A stretch of DNA of 64,000 nucleotides, taken from Candidatus Nitrosotalea okcheonensis (GTDB lineage: Archaea > Thermoproteota > Nitrososphaeria > Nitrososphaerales > Nitrosopumilaceae). Location: positions 265,073 to 329,072 of the forward strand of contig NZ_LT841358.1 of NCBI RefSeq assembly GCF_900177045.1. The letters are read 5' to 3'. The notes under the pieces were generated by a model. That model worked only from the letters and a program-made list of their open reading frames with translations. It did not search any database and was not told the DNA's origin. Shown here one piece after another: positions 9,768-33,056 of the stretch. Made by a program: the position numbers and the translations under genes. Every line of letters begins with the position of its first letter. The first letter of the stretch is position 1.

Positions 9768-10055
9768 ATGTCAAAACATCAATACCGATCAGAAATGGGT
9801 ATAATATCGGATATTTTACGTGTTGTACTGGATTGTGATAGGCATGGTACAATAATATCCTCCATATCCAGAAGTGCAAATCTATCACATTATACAGCAA
9901 TTGAAAAATGTCAAAAATTGATAGACTTTGGATTAATGAAGTCTACAAATGATGGGAGAACCCGTACTTTCACCATTACTGAAAAAGGAATACACTTTTT
10001 TCAAGAACTACAGAAATTCCTAGAAACTGTGCAGGAAATAAAAATAAGATATTGA
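9768..10055 (+). CDS. Winged-helix DNA-binding protein
   Basis: The 95-residue protein is a single winged-helix domain of the archaeal PF14947-like type: helices with L-S-H-Y-T-A-I-E-K-C as recognition helix, a wing (T-N-D-G-R-T-R-T-F) and I-T-E-K-G before the last helix. It probably acts as a dimeric repressor or activator. It is divergent from the two-gene membrane operon at 8897-9669, so control of that operon is plausible. Confidence 0.75.
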   Translation: MSKHQYRSEMGIISDILRVVLDCDRHGTIISSISRSANLSHYTAIEKCQKLIDFGLMKSTNDGRTRTFTITEKGIHFFQELQKFLETVQEIKIRY

Positions 10056-25464: not shown

Positions 25465-26931
25465 TTGAGTGAAAAATTCAAACAAATTAGAGCTATATAC
25501 ATACTAGCAATAATACTGACACTGTCTGGTTTTACGCACCTTTGGAACACTGTGGGATTTCCAGATATTTTCTATGATGAGGGAGTATACATGGAAAGGG
25601 CAATGCATGTGCTAAATGGTCTTGGCCCACAAGACCGGTATTTTTATGATCATCCTTATTTTGGCCAAATTTTTCTTGCTGCTCTTTTTGGCCTAGTAGG
25701 ATTTCCAAATTCATTACATCCTTCAACCGACCCGCATTTCATTGCATCACTTTATTTTGTACCCCGACTTGTCATGGGGTTGCTAGCAGTTCTGGATACT
25801 TTTCTTGTTTACCAAATTGCCGATACAAAATATGGGAAAAAAATAGCGCTAGCTTCCTCTCTCTTGTTTGCAGTGATGCCGTTTACTTGGATACTGAGAA
25901 GAATACTTTTGGATTCTATATTGCTGCCGTTCCTGCTGACATCTATACTGTTTGCACTCAAAACCAAAGATTCTAAAAACAAGTACATGTTGGCATCTCT
26001 TTCAGGAATTTGTCTTGGCATTGCAATATTCACAAAGATTCCAGTCTTTACAATGATTCCATTGATTGCAGGTCTTGTATATTTCAATACTGGGAGGAAC
26101 ATCAAGACTCTTGTGTTTCTATTGATTCCAATATTTTTGATACCTCTCATATGGCCACTTCAGGCAATAGGTACACAACAGTTTGATGTGTGGATGAGAG
26201 ATGTCATAGGGCAGACACAAAGGCAAAGTTTTGGATTGCCATACATCTCACTAGTTTTTTTCAAGCTTGATCCAGTTCTATTTGTTCTCGGAATAGCTGG
26301 AACTGTATTTACAATTATACGGAGAAACTTTTTTATCTTGTTTTGGTTTATCCCATTTGTAATATTCCTGCTCATGATTGGTTACAATCAGTATTTTTAC
26401 TGGATTCCAATACTTCCAGTATTTTGCATATCTGCATCAATACTAACCATGAATGTCTTGGAACGTCTCAGTAAGAGAAATCAAAACAAAGTCTTATCTC
26501 CTGTTGTATTTTTAGGGCTTGTTATGTTTGGATTGGCAAGTACCATTCTAGTTATCAGTGTAAACGTGACAAACTCTGAATTCCAGACCACATCATTTAT
26601 TCTACAAAATGTACATGATACTGATACTACAGTACTTGCAAGTCCCACATATGCATGGATTTTACATTATGTATTTCATAGAGAAAACATACCCAACGAT
26701 TATTCGTTTGTATTATTCAATCATCTCCAGACCAGGAAAATACTTCTTGTGGCTGATCCTCATTTTTTTATAGATCTCGGAAGGGGAAAACAATTGCAAC
26801 AACTCTATAATGATTCTAAAACAATAGCTACATTTGATGAGGATCTATCAAAATATGACATGTCCACATATCCCTATTCTAACATAAAGATGAATGTTGA
26901 TGGAGAGAACATCCAAGTCAAAATGAAATGA
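25465..26931 (+). CDS. GT-C family membrane glycosyltransferase, second copy
   Basis: This 488-residue paralogue of the 1517-2995 protein keeps F-T-H-L-W-N, the acidic D38-E39-G motif in the first loop, L-N-G-L-G-P-Q, and L-R-R-I-L-L-D-S-I-L-L-P-F, with the V-A-D-P-H-F end. The predicted role is a polyprenyl-phosphate-sugar transferase acting outside the membrane. It lies upstream of the giant secreted Ig-repeat protein, a likely glycosylated target. Start is a TTG at 25465. Confidence 0.8.
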   Translation: MSEKFKQIRAIYILAIILTLSGFTHLWNTVGFPDIFYDEGVYMERAMHVLNGLGPQDRYFYDHPYFGQIFLAALFGLVGFPNSLHPSTDPHFIASLYFVPRLVMGLLAVLDTFLVYQIADTKYGKKIALASSLLFAVMPFTWILRRILLDSILLPFLLTSILFALKTKDSKNKYMLASLSGICLGIAIFTKIPVFTMIPLIAGLVYFNTGRNIKTLVFLLIPIFLIPLIWPLQAIGTQQFDVWMRDVIGQTQRQSFGLPYISLVFFKLDPVLFVLGIAGTVFTIIRRNFFILFWFIPFVIFLLMIGYNQYFYWIPILPVFCISASILTMNVLERLSKRNQNKVLSPVVFLGLVMFGLASTILVISVNVTNSEFQTTSFILQNVHDTDTTVLASPTYAWILHYVFHRENIPNDYSFVLFNHLQTRKILLVADPHFFIDLGRGKQLQQLYNDSKTIATFDEDLSKYDMSTYPYSNIKMNVDGENIQVKMK

Positions 26932-27141
26932 ATCTAAAATTGCCCCTATGAAGCCAAATGTGTTTTCAAATATTTGTATTCCATCTATTGTTGCAGTGCG
27001 ACTGAATACGTTTAACACCTCAAATCCTGATATCTGCTATTGTTCAAACTAGAAGAAAACATACGTCAGTCTTTTAAACAAGTGTGAGACCGTACACTTC
27101 AAGAGATGAATTCTGTGCATATTACGGCGATTCTGAAATCT

Positions 27142-27174
27142 AATGTTACAGGTAACATTGTTCATGAACAATGT
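27142..27174. promoter_or_regulatory. Two overlapping palindromes upstream of the Ig-repeat gene
   Basis: AATGTTAC and GTAACATT face each other across two bases (27142-27159). A perfect 20-base palindrome (ACATTGTTCATGAACAATGT, 27155-27174) shares five bases with it. The pair ends 42 bases before the chosen ATG (27216) and overlaps the start of the longer ATG at 27171. Mutually exclusive RNA hairpins or adjacent operator sites would both fit. Confidence 0.6.
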
Positions 27175-27215
27175 ATAACAATTCTTTATTTGAAGAATAT
27201 TGGAGATCATGCGAG

Positions 27216-30200
27216 ATGGATCTAAAGATTTTACTCTTCGTCTCCATCGTTGCGGTGATGGTTTTTCCTCAATATGCTTTTTCCGCCGAACCTGACTCGA
27301 ACAGTTCTGATACTATAATATCTAATTCTACAATATCTAATTCTACCAATTCCACCATTGTGCCCAAACCAAATATTGTAATTGATTCTACATCAAGTAA
27401 AGTTATATCAAATCCTAGCACCTCAAGTCAAGGTTCCCCCATATCGTTAACTGTGAAAGTCATGGACACATCAAACTTGCCAACTACTCCTACAGGTTCT
27501 GTAACCTGGAGTGACGGCAACCTTGGCGGTACATTTAGTCCATCTTCGTGTACCATCTCATCCGGCAATTGTACCGTCTCATATGCGCCTCCGGCAAATC
27601 ATGCTGGTACGATAACAGTAACCTCGAATTATGGCGGGGATACAACGCATTCTGCCAGCACTGGCACATTTGCCTTGACTGTGACGACAATTCATAGTGT
27701 CACCACTACCATAACCTCTACCACCAGCTCAAATTCTAAAGTACAATTTACCGCAACGCTTGTTGATACGTCCAACCCTCAAATTGCCCCTACAGGTTCT
27801 GTAACCTGGAGTGACGGCAACCTTGGCGGTACATTCAGCCAATCATCATGTATTCTTTCATCCGGCAGTTGTACCGTATCATATACTCCTATTGCAAATT
27901 ATGGAAGCAACATACTGATAACCACTAGTTATGAAAGTGATGGAACGTTTTCCACCAGCACTGGAACATTCACTCTGATGGTACACCCTCTGCCCAGTAC
28001 TACTCTTACAGTAACACCAAGTACTGCTACTGTGAACCGCGGATCTCAGGTACGGTTTACTGCTACAGTAGTGGATGTTTCTAAATTGACAACAGTTCAA
28101 ACTGGCTCTGTAACCTGGAGTGACGGCAACCTTGGCGGTACATTTAGTCCATCTTCGTGTACCCTTTCATCCGGCAGTTGTACAGTATCATATACTCCTA
28201 CAACTACATCAAACCTAGTAACAGTTACCGGTAGATATGCTACAAATAATGAATATTCTGGCAGTGCTGGTACCTCTATTCTAACAATAACTTCTCTAGC
28301 TGATACTACAACAAAAGTCACACCAAGCACTGCTACTATAAATCAAGGATCTCAGATACAGTTTACGGCAATTGTGACTGGTGCATCTAGATCACAAATT
28401 GTCCCTACAGGTTCTGTAACCTGGAGTGACGGCAACCTTGGCGGTACATTTAGTCCATCTTCGTGTACCCTCTCATCCGGCAGTTGTACCGTATCATATA
28501 CAGCACCACTCAATTATGGCGGTACGATAACAATCGCTACTAATTATAATGGAGATGTCGCACACTCTGGCAGCACTGGCACATCTACTTTGGCGCTAGA
28601 TGTACTGCATAATACCATAACCACTGTTACACCTAATACTGCTACCGTGGCACAGGGATCGAAGGTACAATTTACTGCAACACTTGCAGATGTTTCCATC
28701 TCATCAATTGTAACTGGGAACGTGTCATGGAGTGATGGCAACGCAGGGGGTTCATTTGACACTGCCTCATGCACGCTTTCATCTAATGCATGCACTGTAT
28801 TTTATACACCATCTGCGTCTTCTACAAATGCAGTTACAATCACTGCTACGTATGCAGGAGATAGTGCACACTCTGGTAGTTTTGGTACCGCACAATCTAC
28901 GATAATCATACTTCCACATTCACTCTTGTTGAGCACTGATCAGTCATACTATGCATACGGTGATGTAGTCACACTCTCTGTAAATCTTCCAGGCCAAAGC
29001 TTACAAAGTATTGCAGTTGGGGTGTCAAATCCAAGTGGTGACAATATTATATCCAGGACTATAACTACTGATGAAAACGGTACTGGCTCTTTACAATTCA
29101 AGATACCGAATACATATCAAACTGGCGTCTATCGAGATATTGTGAATACAAATGTTGATGGTAGAAACTATACTAATTCAACCGAGTTTAACGTAATAAA
29201 ATCACGCGGCGTTTCTATTGACTCGGTACAAATCACAAATCAACAAGGAAATCCAGTTTCAGTTCTGCCACAGGGCCAAAATGGATTTGTCAAAGTTTCA
29301 CTCTCATCGGGAGAAAAAATGCCGGCCCTCTTGACACTCAATCTATTTGATGCAAACCAAAGTAGTCTTGGTACCACATCTATCAAGTCCATCTTAAACC
29401 CGGGAACATCTCAAATGACTCTGTCGTTTTTCATACCCTCGAATGTACAGGTGGGAGTAGCAAATGTCTTCACTGATGTGTATTCGGACTGGCCAACTAA
29501 TGGTGGAACGCCGCTCACTGCAGAGTCTTGTCTTGCAGCAGACCTTCAGGATGTGTCAACACTTCCTGCCTCATACGTTTCATTCGTACCGCATGCATGC
29601 ACAACTTCTGCCAGCAAGGTGCCTGGAGCTGGAAACGTATTATCCACTGCAATGACAAATAACCAAGCTGAAATTACACTTGGAGTCGTGATTCAAAATG
29701 ACTCTATGACATTTATGAGTCCTACACAGGCTCATCTTCTTGCACTCGCGTATCAAAATAACACTGGCCAAAATATGATCCACAATTCCATAGGAACAGT
29801 AAATGTGAGTCTTAACAGTCTTGGTACTAATGGAACAAGTATCGGAACTATTGGTAATGCTACCAGAATCGGACCTGCACAATTTACAACCTTGGCAGGT
29901 CCTAATATTCAAAATAATCCCGTGGCACTGAAAATTTTACAAGAAATCCAAGCATCAAAGAGGCAAGTGGCAAATATACTGGGGAACCAGACAGCAGCAC
30001 AACTTGATCAGCAGTTGATACTGCAGCAGCGACAGTCTGCTGCCAGTCAACTCAAACAAGACTTATCTGCACTTGCAGTGGCAAGTGCATCCACCACACC
30101 CGATGCAGCATATGTCCACTTTCTTACAACCGTGACTGACAACAGGACTCAATCTGTATTTCAAAATGAGTTTAATTTCATGAAACAAAGAATTGCAGTT

Positions 30201-30791
30201 GCAAATACTGCAATGCAGTCTGTTATTAATGGCGGTGGAAGTCTAGACCAAGCACTTGTCACCTTTAACAAATATGCCACCGTAAACCACGTTCAAATGG
30301 TCAGCCTTAACAATGAACTAAATGTTGCATATGGTCTTGCAAACAGCAAAATTCAGTCTTGTTTTAACAATGCGGGACAACTAACGGTCGTAAATGGAGT
30401 GAATCCATGTATTGCAAATATTGCAAACAATTCTACCGGACCGACTGGAATCTCAATAGTATCGGTACAACCAACCGACCAGCAAGGAAACCCAGTATCT
30501 TTAATCAATAGAGGACAGACAGGATACGTAAAAGTTGTAATTGATTCCAACGCGAGTACACAATCTCTCATAACAGTAAACATCTTTGATTCCAATGTGA
30601 GCAGTCTTGGTACTGCATCTGCCCAGTATGCGCTAAGCCCGGGACAATCTGAAGTAATTCTGCCTTATTATGTTCCAGCCCAATCAGGAACTGGACTTGC
30701 AAGTGTTTATGCAAATGTATTTACTGACTGGCCAAACAAAGGAGGAACATCACAATCAAATGAATTATCATACTTTGTCGGTCTTTCATGA
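27216..30791 (+). CDS. Giant secreted surface protein with Ig-like repeats
   Basis: From ATG 27216 (signal peptide, A-F-S-A end) the protein has 1191 residues; an ATG 45 bases upstream would put 15 extra residues before the signal. After an Asn/Ser-rich stretch it has five Ig-like (Big/Ig_5-type) domains of about 100 residues, each with the G-S-V-T-W-S-D-G-N-L-G-G-T-F core (less exact in the fifth), then an MG2-like domain. A pair of matching domains with Q-G-N-P-V-S ... F-T-D-W-P follows, separated by a long Gln/Ala helical region. It has no C-terminal anchor. Many N-x-S/T sites suggest glycosylation. It probably acts in the cell surface or adhesion. Confidence 0.85.
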   Translation: MDLKILLFVSIVAVMVFPQYAFSAEPDSNSSDTIISNSTISNSTNSTIVPKPNIVIDSTSSKVISNPSTSSQGSPISLTVKVMDTSNLPTTPTGSVTWSDGNLGGTFSPSSCTISSGNCTVSYAPPANHAGTITVTSNYGGDTTHSASTGTFALTVTTIHSVTTTITSTTSSNSKVQFTATLVDTSNPQIAPTGSVTWSDGNLGGTFSQSSCILSSGSCTVSYTPIANYGSNILITTSYESDGTFSTSTGTFTLMVHPLPSTTLTVTPSTATVNRGSQVRFTATVVDVSKLTTVQTGSVTWSDGNLGGTFSPSSCTLSSGSCTVSYTPTTTSNLVTVTGRYATNNEYSGSAGTSILTITSLADTTTKVTPSTATINQGSQIQFTAIVTGASRSQIVPTGSVTWSDGNLGGTFSPSSCTLSSGSCTVSYTAPLNYGGTITIATNYNGDVAHSGSTGTSTLALDVLHNTITTVTPNTATVAQGSKVQFTATLADVSISSIVTGNVSWSDGNAGGSFDTASCTLSSNACTVFYTPSASSTNAVTITATYAGDSAHSGSFGTAQSTIIILPHSLLLSTDQSYYAYGDVVTLSVNLPGQSLQSIAVGVSNPSGDNIISRTITTDENGTGSLQFKIPNTYQTGVYRDIVNTNVDGRNYTNSTEFNVIKSRGVSIDSVQITNQQGNPVSVLPQGQNGFVKVSLSSGEKMPALLTLNLFDANQSSLGTTSIKSILNPGTSQMTLSFFIPSNVQVGVANVFTDVYSDWPTNGGTPLTAESCLAADLQDVSTLPASYVSFVPHACTTSASKVPGAGNVLSTAMTNNQAEITLGVVIQNDSMTFMSPTQAHLLALAYQNNTGQNMIHNSIGTVNVSLNSLGTNGTSIGTIGNATRIGPAQFTTLAGPNIQNNPVALKILQEIQASKRQVANILGNQTAAQLDQQLILQQRQSAASQLKQDLSALAVASASTTPDAAYVHFLTTVTDNRTQSVFQNEFNFMKQRIAVANTAMQSVINGGGSLDQALVTFNKYATVNHVQMVSLNNELNVAYGLANSKIQSCFNNAGQLTVVNGVNPCIANIANNSTGPTGISIVSVQPTDQQGNPVSLINRGQTGYVKVVIDSNASTQSLITVNIFDSNVSSLGTASAQYALSPGQSEVILPYYVPAQSGTGLASVYANVFTDWPNKGGTSQSNELSYFVGLS
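27495..28475 (+). repeat. Near-identical DNA repeats within the Ig domains
   Basis: Copies starting at 27495, 27795, 28104 and 28410 are almost identical over about 60 bases, starting at G-G-T/C-T-C-T-G and running through the G-D-L-G-G-T region; a fifth at 28715 is diverged. Spacing is 300, 309 and 306 bases. The DNA between the cores differs far more, which points to recent exchange or selection on the core. Confidence 0.8.
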
Positions 30792-32106: not shown

Positions 32107-32118
32107 TAGATATACAAA
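32107..32118 (+). repeat. Shared 12-base motif, copy 2
   Basis: The exact repeat of the motif at 31530-31541 abuts and includes the first base of the TFB start codon. It lies where the transcript is expected to begin, so a bound protein could block initiation. Confidence 0.35.
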
Positions 32119-33056
32119 TGATATCTAATAAAAAACAAGAACTTGTATTTGAAAAAGACAAGACATGCCTACGTGATGGAATATCACATGGGCCACTTGT
32201 GACTGATAATGTTCGTGGTGAAATACTGTGTGCAAAATGTGGAACCATTCTTGAAGATAGGGTAGAAGATTCCGGATCAGAACAAAAATTATTCACTGCA
32301 GAAGACTATGGAAACAGCACCAGGACTGGACTTGGCTCGGCGCTATCAATTCATGACAAGGGATTGTCTACTGTAATTGGAAATACAGATCGGGATGCAT
32401 CTGGAAATTCCATTTCTACATACATGAAGTATACATTTAACAGACTACGAACTTGGGATACAAGAAGCAAGTCAAGTTCTGCTGAAAGAAATCTTCGCTC
32501 TGCGTTTGTAGTAATGGGGGCAATCCAGCCAAAACTTGAGGTTTCTGATGCTGTAGTCGAACGAGCTGCATATTTGTATCGAAAGGCACTGACTAAAAAC
32601 ATCATTCGAGGAAGAACAATTTCTGGCATGATTCTTTCTGCACTGTATATTGCATGCAGGGAATCTGGAGTTCCAAGGACACTGCAGGATGTTTCAAGTG
32701 CAGGAAATGTGTCTTTTAAGAATCTCTCGCGCCACTATAGGATATTTGTCAAAACACTTGATTTGCAAGTAGACTCTCTCAATCCGTCAGAGTTTGTATC
32801 AAAGATTGGAACATCTGTAGGTCTTAGTGAAAAGGCACAAAGAGACGCACTTGGTATTATTGAGGATGCCAAGAAAAGAGGGCTTGCAGATGGGAAAAAC
32901 CCAGTATCGCTTGCAGCTACTGCCCTCTTTTTGTCAGGTATGATAAATGGAGAAAAGGCCACTCAAGACAGCATTGCCAAGGCTTCTGGAATCAGCAGCG
33001 TGACTATACGCAATGTAGCAAAGGTGTTCCGAAAGAAGATGGAATTGGGAACATAA
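32118..33056 (+). CDS. tfb: Transcription initiation factor IIB (TFB)
   Basis: The 312-residue protein has a zinc-ribbon N-terminus, a B-linker region and two cyclin-like repeats (about 120-195 and 215-300), with G-R-T-I-S-G-M-I-L-S-A-L-Y-I-A-C and P-V-S-L-A-A-T-A-L-F. TFB recruits RNA polymerase to TATA-TBP. The ribbon has C17, C38 and C41 but D20 where a second Cys is expected (C-L-R-D), so the zinc site is incomplete or uses H24. Thaumarchaeota carry several TFB copies, so this may be a specialised one. Its stop overlaps the pirin start. Confidence 0.92.
   Translation: MISNKKQELVFEKDKTCLRDGISHGPLVTDNVRGEILCAKCGTILEDRVEDSGSEQKLFTAEDYGNSTRTGLGSALSIHDKGLSTVIGNTDRDASGNSISTYMKYTFNRLRTWDTRSKSSSAERNLRSAFVVMGAIQPKLEVSDAVVERAAYLYRKALTKNIIRGRTISGMILSALYIACRESGVPRTLQDVSSAGNVSFKNLSRHYRIFVKTLDLQVDSLNPSEFVSKIGTSVGLSEKAQRDALGIIEDAKKRGLADGKNPVSLAATALFLSGMINGEKATQDSIAKASGISSVTIRNVAKVFRKKMELGT

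Follow-up and report, generated by a model that had tools for sequence, protein, structure and literature searches.

The perfect 20-base palindrome upstream of a giant surface protein gene is, judged from sequence comparison, very probably a DNA docking site for a small regulator of cell-envelope genes in Nitrosotalea. In the reading that we favor, and to which we assign a probability of roughly 0.7, this 20-mer is the operator of a regulon and would be bound by a dimeric winged-helix protein (wHTH-B), likely an activator, with a far promoter (P1) and an upstream open reading frame (ORF) supplying a basal route to the same gene. The 18-base inverted repeat that overlaps the 20-mer is almost certainly a coincidence. 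The features concerned are collected in Table 1.

Table 1. Features of the giant surface protein locus, operator sites of the same genome and genes linked to the candidate regulator.
Feature	Position	Strand	Remarks
Far promoter P1 and start region	27047-27100	+	TATA TTTTAAA at 27072-27078; conserved in 13 orthologs
Upstream ORF, 39 codons	27106-27225	+	ATG 27 nt after P1 TATA; runs through operator and P2
18-base inverted repeat	27142-27159	+	AATGTTAC-AG-GTAACATT; judged coincidental
Conserved TA flank of operator (TAACA...)	27153-27154	+	T 48/50, A 48/50; positions free in search pattern
Operator core, 20-base perfect palindrome	27155-27174	+	ACATTGTTCATGAACAATGT; consensus TAACAWTGTTMNTGAACAANGT
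BRE/TATA region of near promoter P2	27175-27190	+	ATAACAATTC, and TTTATT at 27185-27190
Giant surface protein gene	27216-30791	+	Ig-like Big_3_5 repeats (Pfam PF16640, 4e-25); signal peptide MDLKILLFVSIVAVMVFPQYAFS
wHTH-B gene, own genome	C1:52739-53041		About 101 aa; winged-helix, HTH_45/Sso10a-like
Membrane protein after wHTH-B	L163 4163-4699	-	Homologs in L088, L135, L177, L179, L181, L190
Own-genome operator site before wHTH-A			E 9e-13 (best-scoring)
Own-genome operator site before giant gene	27155-27174		E 7e-12
Own-genome operator site before 76-aa protein gene			E 4e-10
Own-genome operator site before ABC exporter operon			E 9e-8
Own-genome operator site before PepSY gene			E 1e-6
Own-genome operator site before DUF6659 ORF			E 3e-5

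The window, meaning the whole stretch of 64,000 nucleotides that was analyzed, belongs to an archaeal genome of 1.97 Mb in a single contig. The initial annotation gave both palindromes correctly, in sequence as well as in position, with an overlap of five bases (27155-27159), but its statement that they go far beyond what is seen elsewhere in the window was too strong. When inverted repeats with perfect arms of 8 or more bases and a gap of at most 3 were counted over the whole window and compared with dinucleotide shuffles, 9 were found, as against a shuffle mean of 6.05 and a maximum of 11; with arms of at least 10 bases there was one, as against 0.5 per shuffled window, and the 18-mer is one among several inverted repeats of like size. 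On a single sequence alone, neither palindrome is significant; it is comparison that establishes the 20-mer and discredits the 18-mer. A scan for bacterial promoters and terminators returned only sigma-70-type matches, inside the gene, which are irrelevant to archaea.

The dyad of the 20-mer is kept in all 13 orthologs of the giant gene, at 8-10 of its 10 dyad positions. Besides these orthologs, a DNA search that took the intergenic region as query returned many separate short matches in the same genus to query bases 204-259, which correspond to the 20-mer and the next 16 bases. The fetched matches read ACATTGTTNNTGAACAATGT-N4-CAATTNTTTAT and stand before differing genes (Ig-like surface proteins, PepSY secreted proteins, a 95-aa winged-helix protein that we call wHTH-A, a 76-aa protein and others), with the start codon mostly 22-25 nt past the TATA box. 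A strict pattern run against 84,980 species genomes matched 63 stretches, 62 of which are Nitrosotalea or thaumarchaeal records; this pattern fixed the spacing between operator and TATA, as did the patterns behind most of the sites fetched overall, and the constancy of that spacing should be read from the intergenic DNA search, its fetched matches and the profile search described below. The lone Bacteroidales match (L089) is taken to be due to chance, with no ORF of at least 40 aa within 60 nt downstream, and the strict pattern was absent from viral contigs.

An alignment of 50 sites also showed preferences at positions that the pattern had left free: position 9 is A or C only, and position 17 is A in 48 of 50 sites, in addition to the TA flank listed in Table 1. 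A core-only pattern had proved too noisy in the own genome (35 matches, as against 19 for the control) and was replaced by a profile built from this alignment with the own genome left out. The profile recovers six sites from the own genome, the same sequence thus standing upstream of several unrelated genes; across the genus it gives matches in 36 of the 37 genomes of Nitrosotalea, and the sister genus g26 has sites as well. Incomplete MAGs blur presence and absence. That both palindromes are functionless products of chance would agree with the counts from the window, which are near shuffle level; for the 20-mer, however, chance is refuted by conservation, recurrence and taxonomic restriction, and the explanation, practically negligible for the pair, stands for the 18-mer.

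Further occurrences should be recorded here. A perfect extended dyad, TAACATTGTTACTTAACAATGTTA, lies before an unrelated ORF in a high-GC relative (G082; L178, about 1500-1525), far from the wHTH-B homolog of that genome. In deep-branching Nitrosotalea (L082, L088, L123, L132, L135), operators precede a 47-aa ORF (M...VASIVMMATPFYG..FSAVVQVSAKSLMPLLLSSLG), and those of L088 and L135 are near an Ig-like surface protein gene.

The operator holds a constant position relative to the core promoter. At the near promoter (P2), its end is separated from the BRE region by 4 nt and from the TATA box by 10 nt, and this spacing of 10 bases is the same in the orthologs and in other regulon members; at the own-genome sites 53768 and 54668 the TATA matches are weaker. 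Although the giant gene was listed with a start at 27171, inside the palindrome, the start at 27216 is preferred on account of the signal peptide and because every ortholog has it at the same place with respect to the operator, and it is almost certainly the true one. The ATG follows the TATA box by 25 nt in all orthologs. As archaeal transcription is expected to start about 25 nt past the TATA box, that is, at this ATG, the P2 transcript is predicted to begin at about 27210-27216, downstream of both palindromes, and the giant-gene mRNA made from P2 is thus probably leaderless and free of the palindrome. Regarding the neighborhood, a PMT_2/Alg9-like mannosyltransferase gene (25465-26931, +) precedes the giant gene, and as its 3' end is recognizable upstream of several giant-gene orthologs, a link to surface glycosylation is possible. 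A gene for TFB, the archaeal TFIIB (32118-33056, +), lies close downstream of the giant gene.

The left palindrome does not share in this conservation. Pairing of the left arm of the 18-mer at 7-8 of 8 positions is confined to the own genome and the relatives nearest to it (G003, G006); in nine other orthologs of the 13 the arm pairs at 3-6 of 8, and over 67 regulon sites its pairing is at the level of the control registers. The right arm, GTAACATT, is the conserved edge of the operator, while the left arm is not conserved. Given the pairing in the nine orthologs and the chance-level count at the 67 sites, we reject the left palindrome as a second operator, and with it the proposed double operator. 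When the same palindromes were sought before homologous genes, as had been suggested, the 20-mer was found in all 13 orthologs and the 18-mer in the nearest relatives only.

The overlap had also suggested a switch in the mRNA leader, in which the two palindromes would form mutually exclusive hairpins. A transcript from P1 would indeed contain both, with five bases in common. However, the folding of the 131-nt P1 leader is on a par with that of shuffles (z -0.17), the left palindrome is unconserved, any hairpin would sit within the translated frame of the upstream ORF, and the same element occurs at the promoters of unrelated genes, where it is expected to lie upstream of the transcripts, as it does 5' of the BRE/TATA of P2. 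Covariation in the dyad across the operator copies of the regulon is near shuffle level, as expected of a protein site with tolerant positions, and conserved alternative helices with compensatory changes, which would mark a cis-acting RNA switch, were not found. We thus consider an RNA switch highly improbable. The other suggestion of the initial annotation, that an operator may control the expression of the surface protein, finds good support in the case of the 20-mer, through its conservation, its recurrence and its fixed promoter geometry.

The protein that would bind this operator is strongly indicated, by gene neighborhood, to be wHTH-B. In the own genome, the operator lies between the divergently oriented wHTH-B and PepSY genes; in deep-branching Nitrosotalea, an operator between the ABC exporter and its neighbor adjoins the wHTH-B gene, and the gene order there is wHTH-B, then a membrane protein, then the operator-bearing PepSY gene. 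At the genus loci examined, the operator is 81-110 nt from the start codon of wHTH-B, in divergent orientation, and wHTH-B of high identity is present in most genomes of the genus and in G065 of the sister genus. Among the genomes examined outside the genus, about 15 operator sites were found at E 0.05 or better, some with weak profile scores (E 4e-4 to 3e-3), and four of these, which belong to other genera and families (G053, G065, G067 and G097), are within 0.6 kb of wHTH-B, where our own estimate of the random expectation is about 0.03. In G053, a perfect dyad TTAACATTGTTCCTTAACAATGTTAA (ACATTGTTAAGGAACAATGT) stands 55 nt upstream of a wHTH-B of 65% identity, with a PepSY-like gene on the opposite side. 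A candidate regulator gene is, in other words, linked to the operator. Genomes with operator-like sites and no wHTH-B match at E 1e-8 are G086 and G042 outside the genus, and G002 and G028 within it.

As for the protein itself, wHTH-B scores 31.5 bits against HTH_45 (PF14947), above the Pfam gathering cutoff of 25.5, and 30.1 bits against the NCBIfam Sso10a family (NF053610), below the curated cutoff of 60. Its predicted structure (mean pLDDT 80) is a winged helix with a C-terminal helix, and the nearest folds are Sso10a-2 (TM 0.67) and MarR. Always following wHTH-B, other families included, is a membrane protein of 127-180 aa that has two hydrophobic segments and matches no Pfam family, and which may be a sensor or partner of the regulator.

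Nitrosotalea genomes hold many HTH_45 paralogs, and in many of these genomes the operator stands before the wHTH-A gene itself. A different paralog could thus be the cognate protein, or else wHTH-A (95 aa, MS[KR]QPYRSELGMISD...) acting as an autoregulator, the more so as its site is the best-scoring one in the own genome. However, a close ortholog of wHTH-A is missing from deep-branching genomes that do bear the operator (G009, G018, G026, G029, G034), which makes it the less likely regulator; its own site shows the fixed, target-type spacing of the other regulon genes, and the out-of-genus sites adjoin wHTH-B instead. This assignment is thus improbable, and wHTH-B remains preferred. A further HTH_45 paralog in the window (9768-10052, +), 66% identical to the wHTH-A query, gave no nearby operator match in the profile search.

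A dimer of wHTH-B on the dyad at 27155-27174 would activate by aiding the binding of TBP and TFB at P2. Activation is most likely as the operator lies just upstream of BRE/TATA at a fixed phase, and we would favor it over repression by roughly two to one. Some repressors too sit near BRE/TATA, and with only 4 nt to the BRE region and 10 nt to TATA, a dimer could clash with TFB and block TFB/TBP loading, or the polymerase, at P2, leaving P1 as a relief or basal route. Nonetheless, the operator is wholly upstream of BRE/TATA and keeps its phase at unrelated genes, an arrangement also known from the GvpE activator site of haloarchaea (PMC8241225), and a repressor site, although a serious alternative, is the less likely of the two. 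The candidate targets, namely PepSY proteins, a MacB/LolD-type exporter, surface proteins and the membrane protein of the regulator's own gene cluster, suggest that the favored activator would respond to the state of the envelope.

The second part of our reading concerns the route from P1. The upstream ORF stops 7 nt past the ATG of the giant gene (ATGGATCTAA). Across the 13 orthologs, it is 37-40 codons long and its frame is open through operator and P2 in every case, whereas the other two frames contain stops in all; its end is never more than 10 nt away from the start codon of the giant gene (ATGGATCTAA in most, ATGA in L005 and L006). The distance from its ATG to the operator is 46, 49 or 52 nt, all 1 mod 3, while the distance from P1 to the operator, in the same orthologs, is 104-112 nt and takes all three phases. 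A comparable ATG-open frame occurs at 5 of 56 other regulon sites. A rough chance value for this frame keeping is 6e-7 over seven lineages, which is too optimistic, as the lineages are related. The peptide is not conserved in its amino acids, and nonsynonymous changes outnumber synonymous ones, which rules out a protein product as the selected entity and fits a leader whose translation, not its product, matters. The frame and the stop-start overlap, kept in 13 of 13 orthologs, suggest that the upstream ORF is translationally coupled to the giant gene.

The P1 transcript would thus begin with a leaderless upstream ORF, run through the operator and hand ribosomes to the giant gene at a basal, operator-independent level, and P2 would give the regulated leaderless mRNA; the frame would have to stay open through operator and P2 for termination-reinitiation at the surface-protein start. 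In two more distant relatives of the giant gene (L031, L065) the operator is present and P1 absent, and P1 is therefore not essential to the regulon. In G005 (L039), a promoter nearly identical to P1 precedes an unrelated gene by 25 nt. The P1 start region (about 27084-27100) carries a conserved ACCGTACAC motif that recurs ahead of the PepSY genes of L030, L032 and L033. A related TGTACNGTACA-like dyad in this region was considered as another operator and dismissed, as it is not enriched (4 own-genome copies, as against 13 for the reversed control).

Some known systems should be considered for comparison. GvpE of haloarchaea resembles bZIP proteins. Its activator site (UAS) at gas-vesicle promoters is a 20-nt sequence upstream of BRE/TATA (PMC8241225); like it, the Nitrosotalea operator is about 20 nt long, directly upstream of BRE/TATA and common to several promoters, and both loci are dual-promoter surface or organelle systems. 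The sequence and the protein family differ, however; it is the geometry alone that is compared, and activation in Nitrosotalea is something we infer. The Sso10a proteins of Sulfolobus, which wHTH-B resembles in its HTH_45 match and its model, have been studied as chromatin proteins (PMC4941522), whereas wHTH-B scores only 30 bits against the NCBIfam cutoff of 60 and is tied to a specific operator. Local regulators of the MarR type offer a similar fold and a similar arrangement, in which a small winged-helix gene and the gene of an exporter or secreted protein point away from each other across a dyad operator; their members mostly repress by covering the promoter, whereas the Nitrosotalea operator lies upstream of BRE/TATA at a fixed phase. 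Termination-reinitiation coupling of overlapping genes has been described for archaea (PMC6728339), and the upstream ORF is like those pairs in that its stop overlaps the downstream start, but unlike them it encodes a short, non-conserved peptide and is read through another promoter and an operator.

Transcription control in ammonia-oxidizing archaea is scarcely described, and our search of the library literature turned up no publication that describes a regulon operator in these organisms. The present result offers a named operator, a candidate regulator and a target list in 37 genomes. Tentatively, and at somewhat less than even odds, we would go further and see here a two-promoter unit in which the operator itself is coding, joined to a wHTH-B/TAACAWTGTTNNNNAACAWTGT pair that dates far back in the order and grew into a cell-envelope regulon in the acidophilic Nitrosotalea. 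If true, the frame-keeping upstream ORF would provide a clear example from nature of a translated leader that contains a promoter and an operator; the operator would connect surface and PepSY proteins with an exporter in drivers of acid-soil nitrification.
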